Part shown: positions 20,081 to 46,990 of the stretch, one piece after another
Position numbering within the stretch: position 1 is the first letter of the stretch
Layout: each line of letters begins with the position of its first letter
Notes under the pieces: generated by a model
Seen by the model: the letters and a program-made list of their open reading frames with translations, nothing else
Database searches by the model: none
What the model was told of the DNA's origin: nothing
Origin: Actinoplanes sp. L3-i22
GTDB lineage: Bacteria > Actinomycetota > Actinomycetes > Mycobacteriales > Micromonosporaceae
Reading direction: 5' to 3'
DNA length: 64,000 nt
Assembly: GCF_019704555.1 (NCBI RefSeq)
Contig: NZ_AP024745.1
Span: 6,828,501-6,892,500 of the forward strand
Position numbers and translations under genes: made by a program

Positions 20081-20170
20081 TCAAGGCCGCCTGTTTGGGC
20101 TCCCGCCGGGCGGGTAGATGGATCTTGAGCCGTGTTCCGGACCGGAACGCGCCTGGTGCGAGGGGGGATC

Positions 20171-39611: not shown

Positions 39612-40052
39612 GCCCCGCGATGCCCGTCCCGGTGATCACCGGCGAAAGCACCGGCTCCGGACCTCGGCGCTGTCAGACTGTTCGAAGGTGGTCCGGCACC
39701 GCTTCGCGCGCGAGTCGGGAAGTGATCCGGCGCCGCGAGTCGGTCGAGTCGCGTGAGCTGGGCGAGTCGGGCGAGCCGCGTCGGGCCGCGTCGGGCGAGC
39801 CGAAGGCACTCCGGGTCGCGCGAACCGGGCGAGTCGCGCGAATCGGGTCGCGCGAATCGGGCGGGTCGCGCGAATCGGGCGAGCCTGAGGTGGTCCGGCA
39901 CCGCGGGTCGCCCGCATCGGGCGAGCTGTGCGAGTCGGGCGAGCCGGCGGTGCTCCGGCGCCGGTTCGCCCGGGTGCGGCGGGTGCCACCAGCAGGTTTG
40001 CGGGCCACCACGGCGGGGCAATGGCCGTCTGATTTGTGTCGGGAGGGGTGCC
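39612..40052. repeat. Intergenic array of GCGCGAATCGGGC-like repeats
   Basis: From about 39716 to 39970 short units built on TCGGGCGAGCC, GCGCGAATCGGG and GGTGCTCCGGC/GGTGGTCCGGC recur many times, imperfectly. GTGGTCCGGCACCG appears twice (about 39689 and 39891). There is no coding signal despite an open plus-strand frame. The end of the gap holds a clear ribosome site (GGGAGGGG) for the sigma gene. Confidence 0.75.
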
Positions 40053-41315
40053 ATGCGGGAGACCGGGCAGCTCGAGCCGTTCGACGATCTGGATCTGCTC
40101 GCCGATCGGTACGCTCGGGCCCGGCTGTGCGCGGACGCGGCCGCCCGCCGGCGGCTGCGGGAGGCGTTCGTGCGGGACGCGCTGCCGTTCGCCGGCCGGC
40201 TGGCCCGCCGCTACCGGGGGCGGGGCGAGTCCGCCGACGACCTGGAGCAGGTGGCCCGGCTGGGGCTGGTGAAGACCGTCGACCGGTTCGATCCGGACCG
40301 CGGCTCGTTCACGGCGTACGCGATCCTCACCATCACCGGCGAGATCAAGCGGCACTTCCGGGACTACACCTGGGGTGTCCACGTCCCCCGCGGCCAGCAG
40401 GACCGGGTCCTCGACCTGGTGCAGGCCCGGGCCGTGCTGACCAGCGAACTGGCCCGCACCCCGACCGTCACCGAGCTGGCCGAGCGTCTCGACCTCGCGG
40501 AGTCGGAGGTGCTCGTCGCGCAGACCTCGGCGGCCGCGCACAGCACCGAGTCGCTGAACGCGCCGCTCGGCGACAGCCCGGCCGGCGGCGAGATCGGCGA
40601 CCTGTTCGGCGCCGACGACGGCGCGCTGACCCTGATCGACGACCGGACGACGGTGGAGAACCTGCTCTGCGAGCTGCCCGCCCGGGAGTGCCGGCTGCTG
40701 GCCCTGCGGTTCTGGGGCAACCTGAGCCAGGCGGAGATCGCCGAGCAGATGCAGATCTCCCAGATGCACGTGTCCCGGTTGCTCGGCCGTACCCTGACGT
40801 GGTTGCGCGAAGCGATGTTCTCGGACACCGCGCCGGTCTGGACGGCACCCGGCGGGCCGGAGCACCGGGTCCTGGTCACGACCGGGCCGCAGGGCGTCCG
40901 CGCGGCGCTGCACGGCGAGATCGACCGGGACAACGCGAACCCGATCCGCCGGGAGCTGCTGTCCGCGGCCGCGCTGTGCGGGGCCGGTCGGACGCTGGTG
41001 GTGGACTTGTCCCGGGTCCCGCTGATGAGTGCGGCCGGCGTCGCGATGCTGAACGCGGTGTACGAGGTCACCCGGGGGCGCGGCCTGACGTTCCGGTTGA
41101 CGGGGACACAGCCGTACGTCGCAAGGGTGTTGATCGTCTCGGGTCTGCGCAATCTGATCGACGGCCGGTCAGACTGCCAGGGTCGCCCAGACCACCTTGC
41201 CGTTCAGGGTCGGCATGGTCCCCCACCGCGTCGCGAAGCTCTCCACCAGCAGGAGGCCCCGACCGTGGTCCGGGCCGCCCGGCACCCGAACGGTGATCTC
41301 CGGCGCGCGCGGTGA
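40053..41315 (+). CDS. SigB/SigF-type sigma factor fused to a C-terminal STAS domain
   Basis: This 420-codon frame starts at ATG 40053 with GGGAGGGG 4 bases upstream. Residues 35-110 are region 2 (RYRGRGESADDLEQVARLGL, DRGSFTAYAILTITGEIKRH), 115-175 region 3 (RTPTVTELAERLDLAESEVL) and 200-255 region 4 (NLSQAEIAEQMQISQMHVSR). Residues 270-372 form a STAS domain (VVDLSRVPLMSAAGVAMLNA). Anti-sigma antagonists have D-S-S-G where this reads S-A-A-G, so the phospho-acceptor Ser is absent. The last 48 codons run antisense through the end of the convergent ATPase gene and look non-natural. A sigma factor carrying its own antagonist-like domain is unusual. Confidence 0.85.
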   Translation: MRETGQLEPFDDLDLLADRYARARLCADAAARRRLREAFVRDALPFAGRLARRYRGRGESADDLEQVARLGLVKTVDRFDPDRGSFTAYAILTITGEIKRHFRDYTWGVHVPRGQQDRVLDLVQARAVLTSELARTPTVTELAERLDLAESEVLVAQTSAAAHSTESLNAPLGDSPAGGEIGDLFGADDGALTLIDDRTTVENLLCELPARECRLLALRFWGNLSQAEIAEQMQISQMHVSRLLGRTLTWLREAMFSDTAPVWTAPGGPEHRVLVTTGPQGVRAALHGEIDRDNANPIRRELLSAAALCGAGRTLVVDLSRVPLMSAAGVAMLNAVYEVTRGRGLTFRLTGTQPYVARVLIVSGLRNLIDGRSDCQGRPDHLAVQGRHGPPPRREALHQQEAPTVVRAARHPNGDLRRAR

Positions 41316-41900
41316 CCCGTCCCGCACCACGACGTGCACGAACCGGGGCCGGCGGACCAACTGCAGAGTGATCATCGTGCCGGCGTGCTCGACGGCGTTG
41401 GCGACCAGCTCGTCGGCGACGATGGCGGCCGGGCCGGCCAGCTCCGGCAGCCCCCACCGCAGGCAGGCCTCGGTGGCCACGTGCCGGGCCCGCCGGGTGG
41501 CGCCGGTGGCGGGCAGCAGCCGGTCCGTGATCATCGGCGGGACGGCCGCGCCCAGGCTCACCTCCCGGATCGCGTCGTCCACGTCGTCGCGCACCAGCAG
41601 CGCCCCGAACCGCCGCCGGGCCAGCGGAGCGGCCACCTCCGGCCGCGGGCCGCAGAGCAGCACCGGGGTGCCCGGCCAGATCGCCGCCTGCCGGTTGATC
41701 GCGGTGAACACCGACAGCGCGACCACGTCGCCGAGCGACATCCCGGACAGGTCGACGAGCAGCGCGGACGGCTGCTCGGCCAGGGCCTTCTGGAGCCCGA
41801 TGAACAGGCGCGGGGTGGTCGCCAGGACGAGCCGGCCGTGCACCGCGACGATCGTGAACCCGGCCTGCTCGGTCGTGGTCCAGGTCAACGGCTCCGCCAT
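41169..41900 (-). CDS. STAS plus HATPase (anti-sigma-type) protein
   Basis: This is a 243-residue protein. Residues 5-105 are STAS-like (AEQPSALLVDLSGMSLGDVV, without a D-S-S-G site) and residues 130-243 a GHKL ATPase of the RsbW/SpoIIAB kind (IVADELVANAVEHAGTMITL, then GPDHGRGLLLVESFATRWG). The fused pair could be an anti-sigma kinase with a built-in antagonist-like module. AGAGAGG lies 8 bases before ATG 41900. The 3' end overlaps the convergent sigma-STAS frame by 147 bases. It lies downstream of cheB and cheR on the same strand, so it may be co-transcribed with them. Confidence 0.82.
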   Translation of the reverse strand: MAEPLTWTTTEQAGFTIVAVHGRLVLATTPRLFIGLQKALAEQPSALLVDLSGMSLGDVVALSVFTAINRQAAIWPGTPVLLCGPRPEVAAPLARRRFGALLVRDDVDDAIREVSLGAAVPPMITDRLLPATGATRRARHVATEACLRWGLPELAGPAAIVADELVANAVEHAGTMITLQLVRRPRFVHVVVRDGSPRAPEITVRVPGGPDHGRGLLLVESFATRWGTMPTLNGKVVWATLAV

Positions 41901-41960
41901 GCCCGCCACCTCTCTCTCGGGCCGGTGCACCCGCCGCATACCCCACGCGACCTCCCCAAA

Positions 41961-43808
41961 CTACCCTGCCGGGGCGACCGCCTCCATCACGACTATGCTT
42001 CCGGTGGGCGTGCCGCCGCCGTCCACCAGCGGGCTGCACCCGACCCGGACGGTGATCGCCCGGCCGCGGCGGTTGACCGCGTCGATCTGCACCTCGGCGG
42101 TGTCCCCGTCGCCGGCGATCGACTGGCGGATCAGCGGGCGGACCTGGTCGAAGGGCAGCCCGATGTCGAGGTTGAGCAGGTGCTGGCCGACCGCCTCGGC
42201 GCTGCGCAGCCCCCACAGCTCCTCGGCCTGCCGGTTCCACACCCGGACCCGCAGGTCCTGGTCGATCACCGCGACCCCGGCGCGCAGACCGGCGAGGATC
42301 GCGTCCAGGAACGACTTGGCGTCGTCCAGCTCGGTGGTGCTCGCCTGCAGCTGCTCGTTGATGCCCTGGAGCTCGTCGTTGGTCGACTGCAGCTCCTCGT
42401 TCATCGTCTCGAGCTCCTCGTTGGTGGACTGGAGTTCCTCGTTGGTGGTCTCCAGCTCCTCCACCGTCGACTGCAGCTCCTCGTTCGTGGTCTCCAGCTC
42501 CTCGTTGGTGGACTGGAGCTCCTCGTACGCCGCTTCCAGCTCCCGGTTGGTGTGCTCCAGCTCGCCCCGCAGCCGCTTGGCCGCGGTCACGTCGTGGAAG
42601 ACCAGGCTGACGCCGAGCAGCCCGGCGTTCGCGTCGACCAGCGGGGTGAGCTCGATGTCCAGGTACATCGGCGCCCCGCCGCGGTCGAGCTCGACGTCGG
42701 TGACCCGCAGCGTGCGGCGCTCCACCTGCGCCTGCTCGATGTATTTGCGCAGCTCCACCGGCCGGTACGAGACGTCCAGGTCGCGGAAGGGCCGGCCGAC
42801 GTCGCGCGGCGAGACCCCGAACAGGCTCTCCGCCTGCCGGTTGCCGAGCGCCGTCAGCCCGTCCACGGTCACCACGATCTGGGCGGCCGGGCCGGCCAGG
42901 AGCGCGGCGTTGCGCAGCTGATCGAGCGGGGCCGGGCGCCCGTGGGCCGGGCCGGCGGCGTGGTCGGCGCGGGCCGCGCCGGGCACCGGGGCGCTGCGGG
43001 ACGGCACCTTGCGGAAGATCCGCCGCTGCAGGTCGGACGGGAGGAACAGGTCGCCGTGGCTGAGCAGCATCTCGGCCTTGCCGAGGAAGAGCGTGCCGCC
43101 CTCGGCGAGCGCGAAGTGGAACCGGCCGAGGATCCGGCTCTGCGTGTCGGCGTTGAAGTACATCATCGTGTTGCGGCAGGTCAGCACGTCGATCCGGGAG
43201 ATCGGGGCGTCCTGCACCAGGTCGTTGCGCCCGAAGATGACCGCGCGGCGCAGGTCCTTGCGGAACACGTACCGGCCGCCGGTCTGCTCGAAGTAGCGTT
43301 CCAGCAGGTCGGACGGGACCCCGGTGACGTCCCCCGGGCTGTAACTGGCCTGCCGCGCCTCGCTCAGCTGCTCCTCGTCCACGTCGGTGGCGTAGATCTT
43401 GACCCGGCTGCGGAACTCCTCCGGGCCGAGGATCTCGCTGAGCAGGATGGCCAGCGTGTAGGCCTCCTGGCCGGCCGCGCAGCCGGCGGTCCAGACCCGG
43501 ATCGGGCTGCCCGCCGGCTTCGACTCGACCAGCGGGATCAGCACGCCGGTGCGCAGCTGCTCCCAGGCCTCCGGGTCGCGGAAGAACGCGGTCACGTTGA
43601 TCAGGATCGTGTTGAACAGCGCGGTGAACTCGTCCGGCTGCACCTGCAGATAGTCCAGGTACTCCAGGTAGCCGGTCACCGGGAGCTGCGACATCCGCCG
43701 GTCGACCCGCCGGATCAGGCTCGACCGTTTGTAGCCGGTGAAATCAAAACCACGAGATTCCTTGAGGTACGTGAGGAGGCCCTCGAACCCGTTGTCCACC
43801 TGATCCAT
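41961..43808 (-). CDS. CheR-type methyltransferase with PAS, long coiled coil and PAS
   Basis: This 615-residue protein has CheR N and SAM domains at about 1-275 (FNTILINVTAFFRDPEAWEQ, VWTAGCAAGQEAYTLAILLS, ATDVDEEQLSEARQ, CRNTMMYF). A PAS domain (about 305-420) follows, then a coiled coil (about 425-490) made of nearly identical 14-residue units EELQSTNEELETTN, and a last PAS (about 500-610). This matches the CheR part of CheB-CheR-PAS hybrids, here split from CheB. No histidine kinase domain follows the last PAS. It may sense a signal and alter a partner through methylation or scaffolding. The start is ATG 43808, or GTG 43799 by spacing from AGGA. Confidence 0.9.
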   Translation of the reverse strand: MDQVDNGFEGLLTYLKESRGFDFTGYKRSSLIRRVDRRMSQLPVTGYLEYLDYLQVQPDEFTALFNTILINVTAFFRDPEAWEQLRTGVLIPLVESKPAGSPIRVWTAGCAAGQEAYTLAILLSEILGPEEFRSRVKIYATDVDEEQLSEARQASYSPGDVTGVPSDLLERYFEQTGGRYVFRKDLRRAVIFGRNDLVQDAPISRIDVLTCRNTMMYFNADTQSRILGRFHFALAEGGTLFLGKAEMLLSHGDLFLPSDLQRRIFRKVPSRSAPVPGAARADHAAGPAHGRPAPLDQLRNAALLAGPAAQIVVTVDGLTALGNRQAESLFGVSPRDVGRPFRDLDVSYRPVELRKYIEQAQVERRTLRVTDVELDRGGAPMYLDIELTPLVDANAGLLGVSLVFHDVTAAKRLRGELEHTNRELEAAYEELQSTNEELETTNEELQSTVEELETTNEELQSTNEELETMNEELQSTNDELQGINEQLQASTTELDDAKSFLDAILAGLRAGVAVIDQDLRVRVWNRQAEELWGLRSAEAVGQHLLNLDIGLPFDQVRPLIRQSIAGDGDTAEVQIDAVNRRGRAITVRVGCSPLVDGGGTPTGSIVVMEAVAPAG

Positions 43809-43885
43809 TCCTCGCGTCTCCCGTCTCGCCCGGCGCGTCACGGTATCGCAGCGCCCCTGGCCCGGCCCCGTCCCGCACCGGCAGG

Positions 43886-44893
43886 TCACTCCAGATGGGT
43901 GGCGCTCGAATCGGCCAGCCGGGCGAGCAACGCCCGGATCAGCCCGGCGGCGACGTGCGCGTCGTCGGCCATCCCGCGGAAGCGCTCGCCGTAACTGCGC
44001 CCGGCCGCGCCCTCGGCCATCCGGGTGCTCAGCGCCGCCTTCTCCTCCAGGGCGCGCAGCGCCAGCCACAGCGCGCCCTCGGTGGCGACCGCCTGCTCGT
44101 CGAGCAGGCTCTCCGGGGACCAGGCGTGCCCGACCCGGCACCGGAAGTGCGGCAGCGGCTCCAGAGCCACGGACTCCGGGGTCAGGGTGAACAGCGCCCC
44201 GCCACAGGTCGGGCAGCCGAATCCGGCGGGCTCACCGGGGATCCGGTCGGTGGTCGGCCCGGCGTCCGCCCCGATGCTCACCTCCGCCGCCAGCAACGCG
44301 CCGACCGGCCGCTCGCCGTCGCCCGCCTCGGCCGCGCACAGCTCGCCCAGCAGCTTGCCGATCACGTCGGCGGACCGCACGTAGGCCGACGGCACCCGGG
44401 TCACCGCGGCCTCGGGCATCGACGCGAACACGGCGTCGGCCGGATCCTGCACCACGACCAGGCCACCCTGCGCGGCCACCACCTCGGCACCGGCCGCCCC
44501 GTCGTCCCGGGTGCCGGAGAGCACCACGGCGACGACCCGCCCGCCCCGGGCCCGCGCGGCCGACCGGAACAGCGGGTCGATCGCCGGTCGGTGCCCGTTC
44601 TCGGCCGGCCCGTGGCTGAGCCGGATCCGGCCGTCGATCAGCATCAGATGCCGGTCGGCGGGCGCCACGTAGATCCGGCCGGCGTGCACGACCTCGCCGT
44701 CGACCGCGGTCACCGCCGGCAGCGGGCCGGCCCGGGTGAGGATCCGCGGCAGCGCGCTCGGCGACGCCCGTGGCAGGTGCAGCACCACCAGGACCGCCGC
44801 CGGCAGATCGGCCGGCAGCCCGGCGACCATCGCGCGGAGCGCCTCGACCCCACCGGCCGAGGCGCCGGCGACGATCAGGTCCCGTCCGGTCAC
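43886..44893 (-). CDS. CheB-type methylesterase with C-terminal zinc-ribbon region
   Basis: This 335-residue protein lacks a receiver domain. The catalytic triad motifs are visible: Ser in VAGASAGGVEAL, His in VLHLPRASPS and Asp in VLSGTRDDGAAG. After about residue 215, FGCPTCGGALF and FRCRVGHAW form a zinc ribbon often seen in such proteins, followed by a helix. The start is GTG 44893. The gene precedes cheR by 77 bases. With no MCP or CheA gene nearby, the pair probably serves a signalling pathway other than flagellar chemotaxis. Confidence 0.9.
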   Translation of the reverse strand: MTGRDLIVAGASAGGVEALRAMVAGLPADLPAAVLVVLHLPRASPSALPRILTRAGPLPAVTAVDGEVVHAGRIYVAPADRHLMLIDGRIRLSHGPAENGHRPAIDPLFRSAARARGGRVVAVVLSGTRDDGAAGAEVVAAQGGLVVVQDPADAVFASMPEAAVTRVPSAYVRSADVIGKLLGELCAAEAGDGERPVGALLAAEVSIGADAGPTTDRIPGEPAGFGCPTCGGALFTLTPESVALEPLPHFRCRVGHAWSPESLLDEQAVATEGALWLALRALEEKAALSTRMAEGAAGRSYGERFRGMADDAHVAAGLIRALLARLADSSATHLE

Positions 44894-45081: not shown

Positions 45082-45528
45082 GGGCCCACCACCCAAGCAT
45101 CCCAGCCCGTGCCGGTGACGTCACCCTCGCCGAGCGGCCCGGTCTCGTGTCCGCCGCCCTCCCTCAGCGCGGACCCCCGGTCCGCGATCCGGTTGAGCAG
45201 CAGCACGTCCCCAGCGGGCCGGCCACGGTGCGCTCCTCCGGCGCCGGCGTGAGGCTCGGCATCTTCACCGAATTCCCCGTCACCATCAGCCGAAACGCCG
45301 ACCCCGTGCGGACCCGGCCCGCCACGGATAGGGTGACAAGTCCGCGCTGTTCACGGCGGGCGAGGCATCATGTGCCCGGGTCATCCGGTGCACGCTTCGT
45401 CAGGTTCACGGTTGGTCAGGTCCACAGTCGGTCAGGTTCACGGTCGGTCGGATTCACCGGCAGTCGGGTGCGCGATTTGTCAGGCGCACGGGTCATCAGG
45501 TGCGGGAACATCGTCGGCGGGGGTTGAG
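45082..45528. repeat. Gap with GTCAGGTTCACGGTC-type repeats
   Basis: From about 45384 to 45500 a 15-17 base unit like GTCAGGTTCACGGTCG recurs at least five times with drift, in direct orientation, ending shortly before the STAS gene. No ORF with credible composition is seen in the gap. The array may bind a regulator or merely be slippage. Confidence 0.6.
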
Positions 45529-45873
45529 ATGACGAGCTCGTTCGCGGTCAGTAAGCACGACGAGGGCGCTGGCGTCACCCGCCTCGCGGTCCGCGGTGAG
45601 ATCGACGACGAGGTCAGCGACGTCCTCGCCGAGATCATCGGCAACGCGGCCGCCCAGCCCGGCGTCACCGCCCTGGTCGTCGACCTGCAGCGGGTCCCGT
45701 TCCTGGCCGCCGCCGGAATCCGGGCGCTGCTCGAGGGCCGGGCCGCGGCGCTGCATCACCAGCGCTCGTACCAGGTGGTCAACGCCCGCGGCGTGGTGCA
45801 CGGCATCCTGGCCACCACCGGCCTGCTGAGCCTGTTCCACACCACCATCCGCCGCACCCCGGCCAGCCGCTAG
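45529..45873 (+). CDS. STAS domain protein (anti-sigma antagonist-like)
   Basis: This is a 114-residue single STAS domain (RLAVRGEIDDEVSDVLAEII, VVDLQRVPFLAAAGIRALLE). The phospho-acceptor site reads A-A-A-G instead of D-S-S-G, so regulation by Ser phosphorylation as in SpoIIAA is not expected. Surrounded by two STAS-ATPase proteins and a sigma-STAS fusion, it probably belongs to the same partner-switching network. The ATG follows a GGGGGTTGAG ribosome site. Confidence 0.85.
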   Translation: MTSSFAVSKHDEGAGVTRLAVRGEIDDEVSDVLAEIIGNAAAQPGVTALVVDLQRVPFLAAAGIRALLEGRAAALHHQRSYQVVNARGVVHGILATTGLLSLFHTTIRRTPASR

Positions 45874-46033: not shown

Positions 46034-46756
46034 TCAGCGGCGCAGGTTGGCCCAGACCACCTTGCCGCCGTCGGCCGGGACCGTTCCCCAGCGCTTCGCG
46101 AACCGCTCCACCAGGAACAACCCGCGCGGCGCCGCCGGATCCAGCACCGACCCGTCCCGGGTCCGCGGCACCTCGTAGGACCCGTCCCGCACCGCGACCA
46201 GCAGATACCGCCGCCCGAGCGAGAACCGCAGGTCGATCATCGTCTGCGCGTGCACGACCGCGTTCGTCACGAGTTCCCCGGCGACGATCCGCGCCGGATC
46301 CGCCAGCTCGGGCAGGTTCCACCGCGCGCACGCCCGCGCCGCCAGCCGCCGCGCGTGCGCCGCCGCCCCCGACACCGGCAGCAGGCTGTCGGCCAGCCAC
46401 GGCATCTGCCGCCCGGGCATCAGGTCGAGCGCGGCGGCGGTGGTCGGCAGGATCGACACCTGCCCGGACCGCTCGGCCGCGAACCACCGCGCCACCTCGG
46501 CACTGGGCCCGCTGAGCAGCAGCGGCGTACCCGGCCACATCGCCGCCTGCCGCGCCACGGCCGCGAACACGGACAGCGCCACCGGTTCCCGCACCCGCAG
46601 CTCGGCCAGCTCGACGATCACCGCGTCCGGCCGGGCGACCAGGCATTTCAGCAGCGTGGCACGCAGTTGCGGAACCGCCGCGACGGACAGCTCACCATCG
46701 ATCCGCACCACGGTCCGGGTGCCGACCTGGTCGACCGTGCAGCAGATCCCCTGCAT
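46034..46756 (-). CDS. STAS plus HATPase protein, paralogue of 41169-41900
   Basis: This 240-residue protein has the same architecture as the protein at 41.2-41.9 kb. The STAS-like half contains VVRIDGELSVAAVPQLRATL and VIVELAELRVREPVALSVFA. The ATPase half contains IVAGELVTNAVVHAQTMIDL and PRGLFLVERFAKRWGTVPAD. Both end in a GKVVWA block. The N-box keeps E and N but the G1 region is loose, so ATP binding is likely and kinase activity uncertain. ATG 46756 is chosen near the first STAS strand. The duplication indicates an expanded family in this organism. Confidence 0.82.
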   Translation of the reverse strand: MQGICCTVDQVGTRTVVRIDGELSVAAVPQLRATLLKCLVARPDAVIVELAELRVREPVALSVFAAVARQAAMWPGTPLLLSGPSAEVARWFAAERSGQVSILPTTAAALDLMPGRQMPWLADSLLPVSGAAAHARRLAARACARWNLPELADPARIVAGELVTNAVVHAQTMIDLRFSLGRRYLLVAVRDGSYEVPRTRDGSVLDPAAPRGLFLVERFAKRWGTVPADGGKVVWANLRR

Positions 46757-46990
46757 CTCGTCAGTCTTGCCCTTCGAACCGGCAAACCCCACATAAGATC
46801 TGCCACCTATCGCTCTGCTACGCAGCCGGATGCCCGCTGGGTTCAAAACGAACCCCCGAACGCCGATGAACTCTCGCCGCAGCGTGCGGAACGTCCCTCC
46901 GGAGCGCTCGTGCGCCTGTCGTCCACGAGGGGGACACGAGGCGGGAGACGCCGCGGCGGCGTTCCGGCCCGGCGACTAGCATCGCGAAGC

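Follow-up and report, generated by a model that had tools for sequence, protein, structure and literature searches.

The window analysed here, a stretch of 64,000 nucleotides from Actinoplanes sp. L3-i22, carries at 40053..41315 on the plus strand a gene of the σSsdA family in which a sigma factor is fused to a STAS domain. The gene is a single uninterrupted frame of 420 codons (420 aa) with an ATG start, immediately preceded by the stretch GGGAGGGG. The region 5' of the gene is filled at 39686-39981 by imperfect direct repeats, with units of 28-60 bases around CGAGTCGGGCGAGCCG.

Sigma-70 regions 2, 3 and 4 were identified with Pfam and NCBIfam at residues 40-253 (40170..40811, plus strand), followed by the STAS domain at residues 272-370 (40866..41162, plus strand), the limits of which combine the Pfam match with the strand and helix order of a structural model. 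All Pfam matches exceeded the curated cut-offs (Sigma70_r2, 40-107; Sigma70_r3, 122-174; Sigma70_r4, 205-253; STAS, 286-369). Among the NCBIfam models, the cut-off of the general sigma-70 model was exceeded, and that of the SigB/SigF/SigG model TIGR02980 was narrowly missed (221.9 bits, cut-off 234.35, E = 8.3e-66); therefore, the protein is called SigB/F/G-type here and not a filed member of that group. In the source genome, only 40053-41315 matched over both the sigma part and the STAS domain, and five further SigB-like sigma factors matched with the sigma part alone.

An AlphaFold model based on a 45-row alignment gave a confident sigma fold and a confident STAS fold, with an overall pTM of 0.44, so the mutual placement of the two domains is not fixed by the model. 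When the whole model was used in a fold search, the best 50 of 872 matches were all RNA polymerase or sigma entries by title; the two highest-ranked were a model with the title RPSB-RPOC and S. aureus σB, and the global superposition was poor.

The protein ends in a tail of 49 residues (372-420; 41166..41312, plus strand) that is antisense to the neighbouring sipA gene, producing an overlap of 147 bases with it. The other 65 STAS-bearing members examined end at most 12 residues past the column of residue 371 of the window protein, which alone continues for 49, and its eight nearest relatives have total lengths of 367-380 residues. The absence of the tail from all 65 could point to an error of frame or assembly that joined two genes; however, the oddity is confined to the tail, and the sigma–STAS junction is likewise contained in a single frame at 48 additional loci, or 44 excluding second copies. 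A frame error or a chance fusion is thus ruled out and the chance of an artefact at the junction is negligible, so the single frame holding both domains, as proposed in the original prediction, stands. The tail itself, which was modelled with low confidence (block means 44-57), is attributed to the loss of a stop codon or to an error in the sequence, and nothing suggestive of a function was found in it.

Genes adjoining the fusion gene

The convergent gene at 41169..41900 (minus strand) encodes the SipA counterpart, a protein with a STAS and an RsbW-like HATPase domain according to Pfam and alignment. Its open frame begins at 41939; with the ATG at 41900 taken as the start, the protein has 243 aa. 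Directly upstream of sipA lies a gene for a CheR methyltransferase with a PAS domain (CheR-PAS; 41961..44141, minus strand, given as the longest frame, with the true start probably further in) and then one for a CheB methylesterase-like protein (43886..44893, minus strand; Pfam), the order on the minus strand being CheB, CheR-PAS, sipA. A signal input could come from these two genes (41961-44893).

A free STAS protein, in which the phospho-site reads A-A-A-G, is encoded at 45529..45873 (plus strand) by a gene convergent with a second SipA-like gene, the latter also coding for a STAS and an HATPase domain (46034..46846, minus strand; Pfam). Short imperfect direct repeats are found ahead of the free STAS gene (45355-45503). 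The ATPase genes at 41.2 and 46.0 kb had been singled out beforehand as relevant to the fusion, and each indeed encodes an N-terminal STAS followed by a C-terminal HATPase domain. On comparison of the free STAS with the other three STAS domains of the window, the only match was to the fused STAS, with 35% identity.

The pairing of the fusion with a SipA-like gene is conserved. A SipA-like match on the opposite strand, between -150 and +80 bases from the fusion stop and not always of full length, was observed in 26 of 46 loci; in ten others such a match was located elsewhere within 3.5 kb, and in nine there was none within that distance. CheR-PAS was directly upstream of the SipA match in 21 of the 26 abutting loci, as counted by a script that filed L084 as "near" through its 80-base cut-off and missed the overlapping CheR of L052 and L054. 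Among the eight nearest relatives, a SipA-like match is lacking within 3.5 kb in L047 and L050, and L049 has only a SipA of the second type. In L049, the pair of free STAS and second SipA-like gene is placed directly behind the fusion gene, with no SipA of the first type seen there. An orthologue of the free STAS was detected in the fetched flanks of seven of these eight relatives (L040 and L049 belong to one genome), with A-A-A-G each time.

Relationship to σSsdA/SipA and distribution

The original prediction was made without knowledge of a described system of this type; the same architecture was published in 2023 as σSsdA/SipA of Actinoplanes missouriensis (Tezuka, Mitsuyama, Date and Ohnishi, Nat Commun 2023; PMC10733313). 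In σSsdA (AMIS_54240) of that species, a STAS domain is attached to the C-terminus of the sigma factor; in SipA (AMIS_54230), the STAS domain is N-terminal and is followed by an RsbW-like domain. The published evidence comprises two-hybrid assays, RNA-seq, in vitro transcription and mutants, and repression was shown genetically. In the two-hybrid assays, the RsbW-like (ATPase) domain of SipA bound the STAS domain of σSsdA, and no interaction of SipA with the sigma domain could be seen; the phenotype of the sipA deletion requires ssdA (PMC10733313). The L372P exchange, which places a proline in the STAS domain, abolished sigma function and is an unsolved point of the published model. The authors presented σSsdA as the first case of a sigma factor bearing a domain of this kind, left the mechanism of inhibition open, and reported orthologues from Actinoplanes, Pseudosporangium, Couchioplanes, Micromonospora and one Nonomuraea (PMC10733313). 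A search of the literature on sigma–STAS fusions, including papers listed as citing this article, yielded no second description.

One of the genomes compared, G143, encodes a fusion of 379 aa with D68, F91, S100 and L372, and a convergent neighbour of 243 aa with S229. As the lengths and the five residues equal the values published for σSsdA/SipA (PMC10733313), G143 was taken as A. missouriensis. The window fusion is 55% identical to that of G143 over 369 aligned positions, and the 243-aa SipA of the window is 48% identical to its counterpart. In a sigma tree that included five paralogues, the window and A. missouriensis proteins fell in one supported group (SH-aLRT 100), and the window protein was inside a supported set of nine proteins that forms its own clade within the σSsdA family; the tree was made with a quick method, with most inner branches weak and a long-branch warning for one paralogue. 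The window gene is therefore a new member of the σSsdA family, of a fusion type already described in 2023. What the present analysis adds to the known system is a census of the phospho-site, natural deletions of the STAS domain with SipA kept, the link to CheB/CheR-PAS and the second STAS/SipA pair.

Both systems share the domain order of the two proteins, the adjacency of the genes and a SipA of 243 aa (with the start at 41900 in the window). In the genome taken as A. missouriensis, the SipA-like match lies 82-88 bases behind the fusion stop and CheR-PAS is also directly upstream of it, adjoining sipA; the main text of PMC10733313 makes no mention of CheB or CheR. In contrast, the window protein has S-A-A-G at the phospho-site in place of the commoner D-A-A-G or D-A-G-G and a 49-residue tail running over sipA, and a second pair of STAS and SipA-like genes is found about 4 kb away.

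An exact scan of the window for the promoter motif published for σSsdA, GnTT-n14-CGGGTA (PMC10733313), produced one match at 20093-20116. At least one match was obtained in 9 of 100 shuffles, so this is near chance level, and there is no convincing gene behind it.

Sigma and STAS were found in one frame in 49 loci including the window, with 364-391 codons (420 in the window). These correspond to 45 loci without second copies in 44 genomes, one of which has two; without the window, the numbers are 48 loci, 44 without second copies and 43 genomes. The second copies (L027, L029, L038 and L040) were left out of alignment A1, the sigma tree, the phospho-site count and the neighbourhood count. In the family search, 222 of 300 Micromonosporaceae genomes matched at E <= 1e-60, a count that includes sigma-only matches. 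All places among the matches listed reach at least residue 366 and many contain a stop, with stop positions checked only for the 49 loci. Profile searches revealed further genomes of the family with a stop-free match to at least profile position 366.

Outside the Micromonosporaceae, no fusion stop-free through the STAS domain was present among the matches listed for the order (397 genomes) and the class (394 genomes), where fusions would rank first. About 317 genomes of the order sample (G300-G616) lie outside the family, and so, as read, do all but three of the class sample, which partly repeats the same genomes; the Nonomuraea case of PMC10733313 was not in the sample as seen. Therefore, within the genomes sampled, the fusion is restricted to the Micromonosporaceae and is common there. 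The possibility, allowed for in the original prediction, that it might be absent from all relatives was thus dismissed.

Loss of the phospho-site and release of the sigma factor

At the place of the D-S-S/T-G phospho-site, the fused STAS has S-A-A-G at residues 326-329 (41028..41039, plus strand), as judged by alignment and census. In TM1442, RsbV and SpoIIAA, a serine occupies the position aligned with residue A327, so the phosphorylatable serine that is the hallmark of the RsbV/SpoIIAA antagonists is absent from the fusion, just as had been noticed from its sequence at the start. This loss is family-wide: in 66 STAS-bearing members from 65 genomes (the 19 STAS-less genes described below were left out of the count), the position is occupied by Ala in 64, His in one and Met in one, and by Ser or Thr in none. 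The position after the phospho-serine is also Ser or Thr in many antagonists; in the same 66 members it is Ser in one and Thr in one. The loss is no general trait of the source genome: of its other STAS domains, 26 of 29 (the best 30 of 40 matches minus the fusion) keep Ser or Thr, and the three exceptions include the free STAS at 45529-45873. Nor is the serine present in the N-terminal STAS domain of either SipA-like protein encoded in the window.

As none of the 66 members has the serine, docking on the fused STAS cannot be released through RsbW-type phosphorylation of the phospho-position. On sequence grounds this route is excluded, and other residues could be modified. None of the passages on phosphorylation in PMC10733313 concerns the STAS domain of σSsdA. 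The census removes the textbook answer to how SipA would let go, and the way in which SipA acts on σSsdA is an open question in that article.

The window gene is, with good probability, the σSsdA of this organism, with SipA encoded convergently, the STAS domain as the docking site and release brought about via SipA. By analogy with the A. missouriensis pair, RNA polymerase would be guided by the sigma domain to promoters of the σSsdA type, and the product of 41169-41900 would be the SipA that docks on the fused STAS. With Ala at the place of the phospho-serine, SipA could not free itself as RsbW does from RsbV, and because no phosphorylatable serine is available, release would have to come through SipA. 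Competition, the nucleotide state of SipA or the CheB/CheR-PAS genes directly upstream of sipA could each mediate this release.

A different role had been considered in the original prediction, namely that anti-sigma factors are kept away from the sigma domain by the fused STAS, which would either occupy them or cover their binding site. From the textbook behaviour of RsbV and SpoIIAA, a STAS without the serine would in principle be a permanent antagonist. However, the STAS domain is the binding site of the anti-sigma factor in A. missouriensis, where SipA binds via STAS and the sipA-deletion phenotype needs ssdA (PMC10733313); therefore, STAS does not protect sigma from SipA in that species. 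Also against it, STAS is not packed confidently on the sigma domain in the model (pTM 0.44), and a shielding role is highly improbable.

As a docking site, the fused STAS differs from the parts of the Bacillus switches. RsbV/RsbW/σB and SpoIIAA/SpoIIAB/σF employ the same kinds of players, a sigma factor of the B/F/G type, an RsbW-like ATPase and STAS domains, but the STAS of the fusion is covalently joined to sigma and has no phospho-serine, and in A. missouriensis it is the target of the inhibitor rather than its antagonist. Proteins of the Rv1364c type fuse phosphatase, RsbW-like and STAS domains. They also join partner-switch domains in one protein, but without a sigma factor.

STAS-less relatives in group g4, taken to be Micromonospora

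Two genome groups, g1 and g4, are taken to be Actinoplanes and Micromonospora, respectively; the ctaD spacing given in PMC10733313 fits g4. In 19 g4 genomes (L115-L133), picked for their weaker family-search score from 104 g4 genomes with a match (hand count), a close sigma match belongs to a gene that stops at 283-295 codons and has no STAS domain. No STAS remnants, beyond linker residues, were found within 1.5 kb behind these short genes. For comparison, 20 STAS-bearing g4 genomes were chosen from the order-level profile search.

The sigma part had a median dN/dS of 0.032 in the 19 short genes vs 0.038 in the 20 full ones, and the last 100 codons of the STAS domain had 0.15. For SipA, dN/dS was 0.39 vs 0.35, and for its ATPase half 0.27 vs 0.30; all these values come from simple counting over all pairs, which are not mutually independent. 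SipA was intact, meaning a single stop-free match spanning 225 residues or more and not a proven gene, in 15 of 19 STAS-less and 16 of 20 STAS-bearing genomes. A cruder screen of open frames gave 15/19 vs 13/20. The fetched stretch showed no SipA match in L123 and L129 and only a partial one in L116 and L128. The loss of SipA after that of STAS, expected if SipA acted on STAS only, was therefore not seen in these counts (15/19 vs 16/20), for which a paired sign test is powerless.

A DNA tree of 48 rows requires a minimum of five changes between presence and absence of STAS, two of which are forced by well-supported branches. Twelve short genes form one supported clade, with SipA intact in 11. 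A single loss was weakly rejected (short genes as one clade, AU p 0.04). The other genera have the STAS domain, which makes loss simpler to assume than gain, and the domain was probably lost several times in g4. Outside g4, all 18 rechecked genomes of the family with weaker scores keep the whole fusion, stop-free to the end of STAS; one of them, G188, shows an additional match that stops short at profile position 311.

With SipA intact in 15 of the 19 STAS-less genomes, docking on STAS cannot be its only job there. One explanation is that SipA, or another RsbW-like protein, also acts on the sigma domain itself, the STAS handle being a secondary and dispensable device that raises the local concentration. 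The nearly unchanged constraint on the sigma part after the loss of STAS (0.032 vs 0.038), the similar maintenance of SipA and of its ATPase half, and the repeated changes of state on the tree favour such direct action. Conversely, SipA did not bind the sigma domain in the two-hybrid assays of A. missouriensis (PMC10733313), the whole fusion is kept in 18 of 18 rechecked genomes outside g4, and in g4 sipA is not adjacent to the sigma gene and may serve another partner than the sigma protein. Direct action on sigma is therefore rather unlikely.

Returning to STAS as the docking site, a tentative and rather unlikely extension is a partner switch that works without phosphorylation of the sigma factor's STAS. 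The STAS domain would be a fixed handle, from which SipA could be displaced by a competing protein equally devoid of the serine, such as the free A-A-A-G STAS (45529-45873). Alternatively, SipA could be reset through the CheB/CheR-PAS operon, to which sipA belongs. The second, sigma-less STAS/SipA pair of the window could thus be the missing competitor. In Micromonospora, the handle would have been dropped several times with SipA kept, pointing to a second route to σSsdA or to a second partner. The 19 natural deletions of STAS, in which the sigma part is nearly unchanged, are ready material on the separate roles of STAS and SipA. Their C-terminal ends (L115-L133) are variable.
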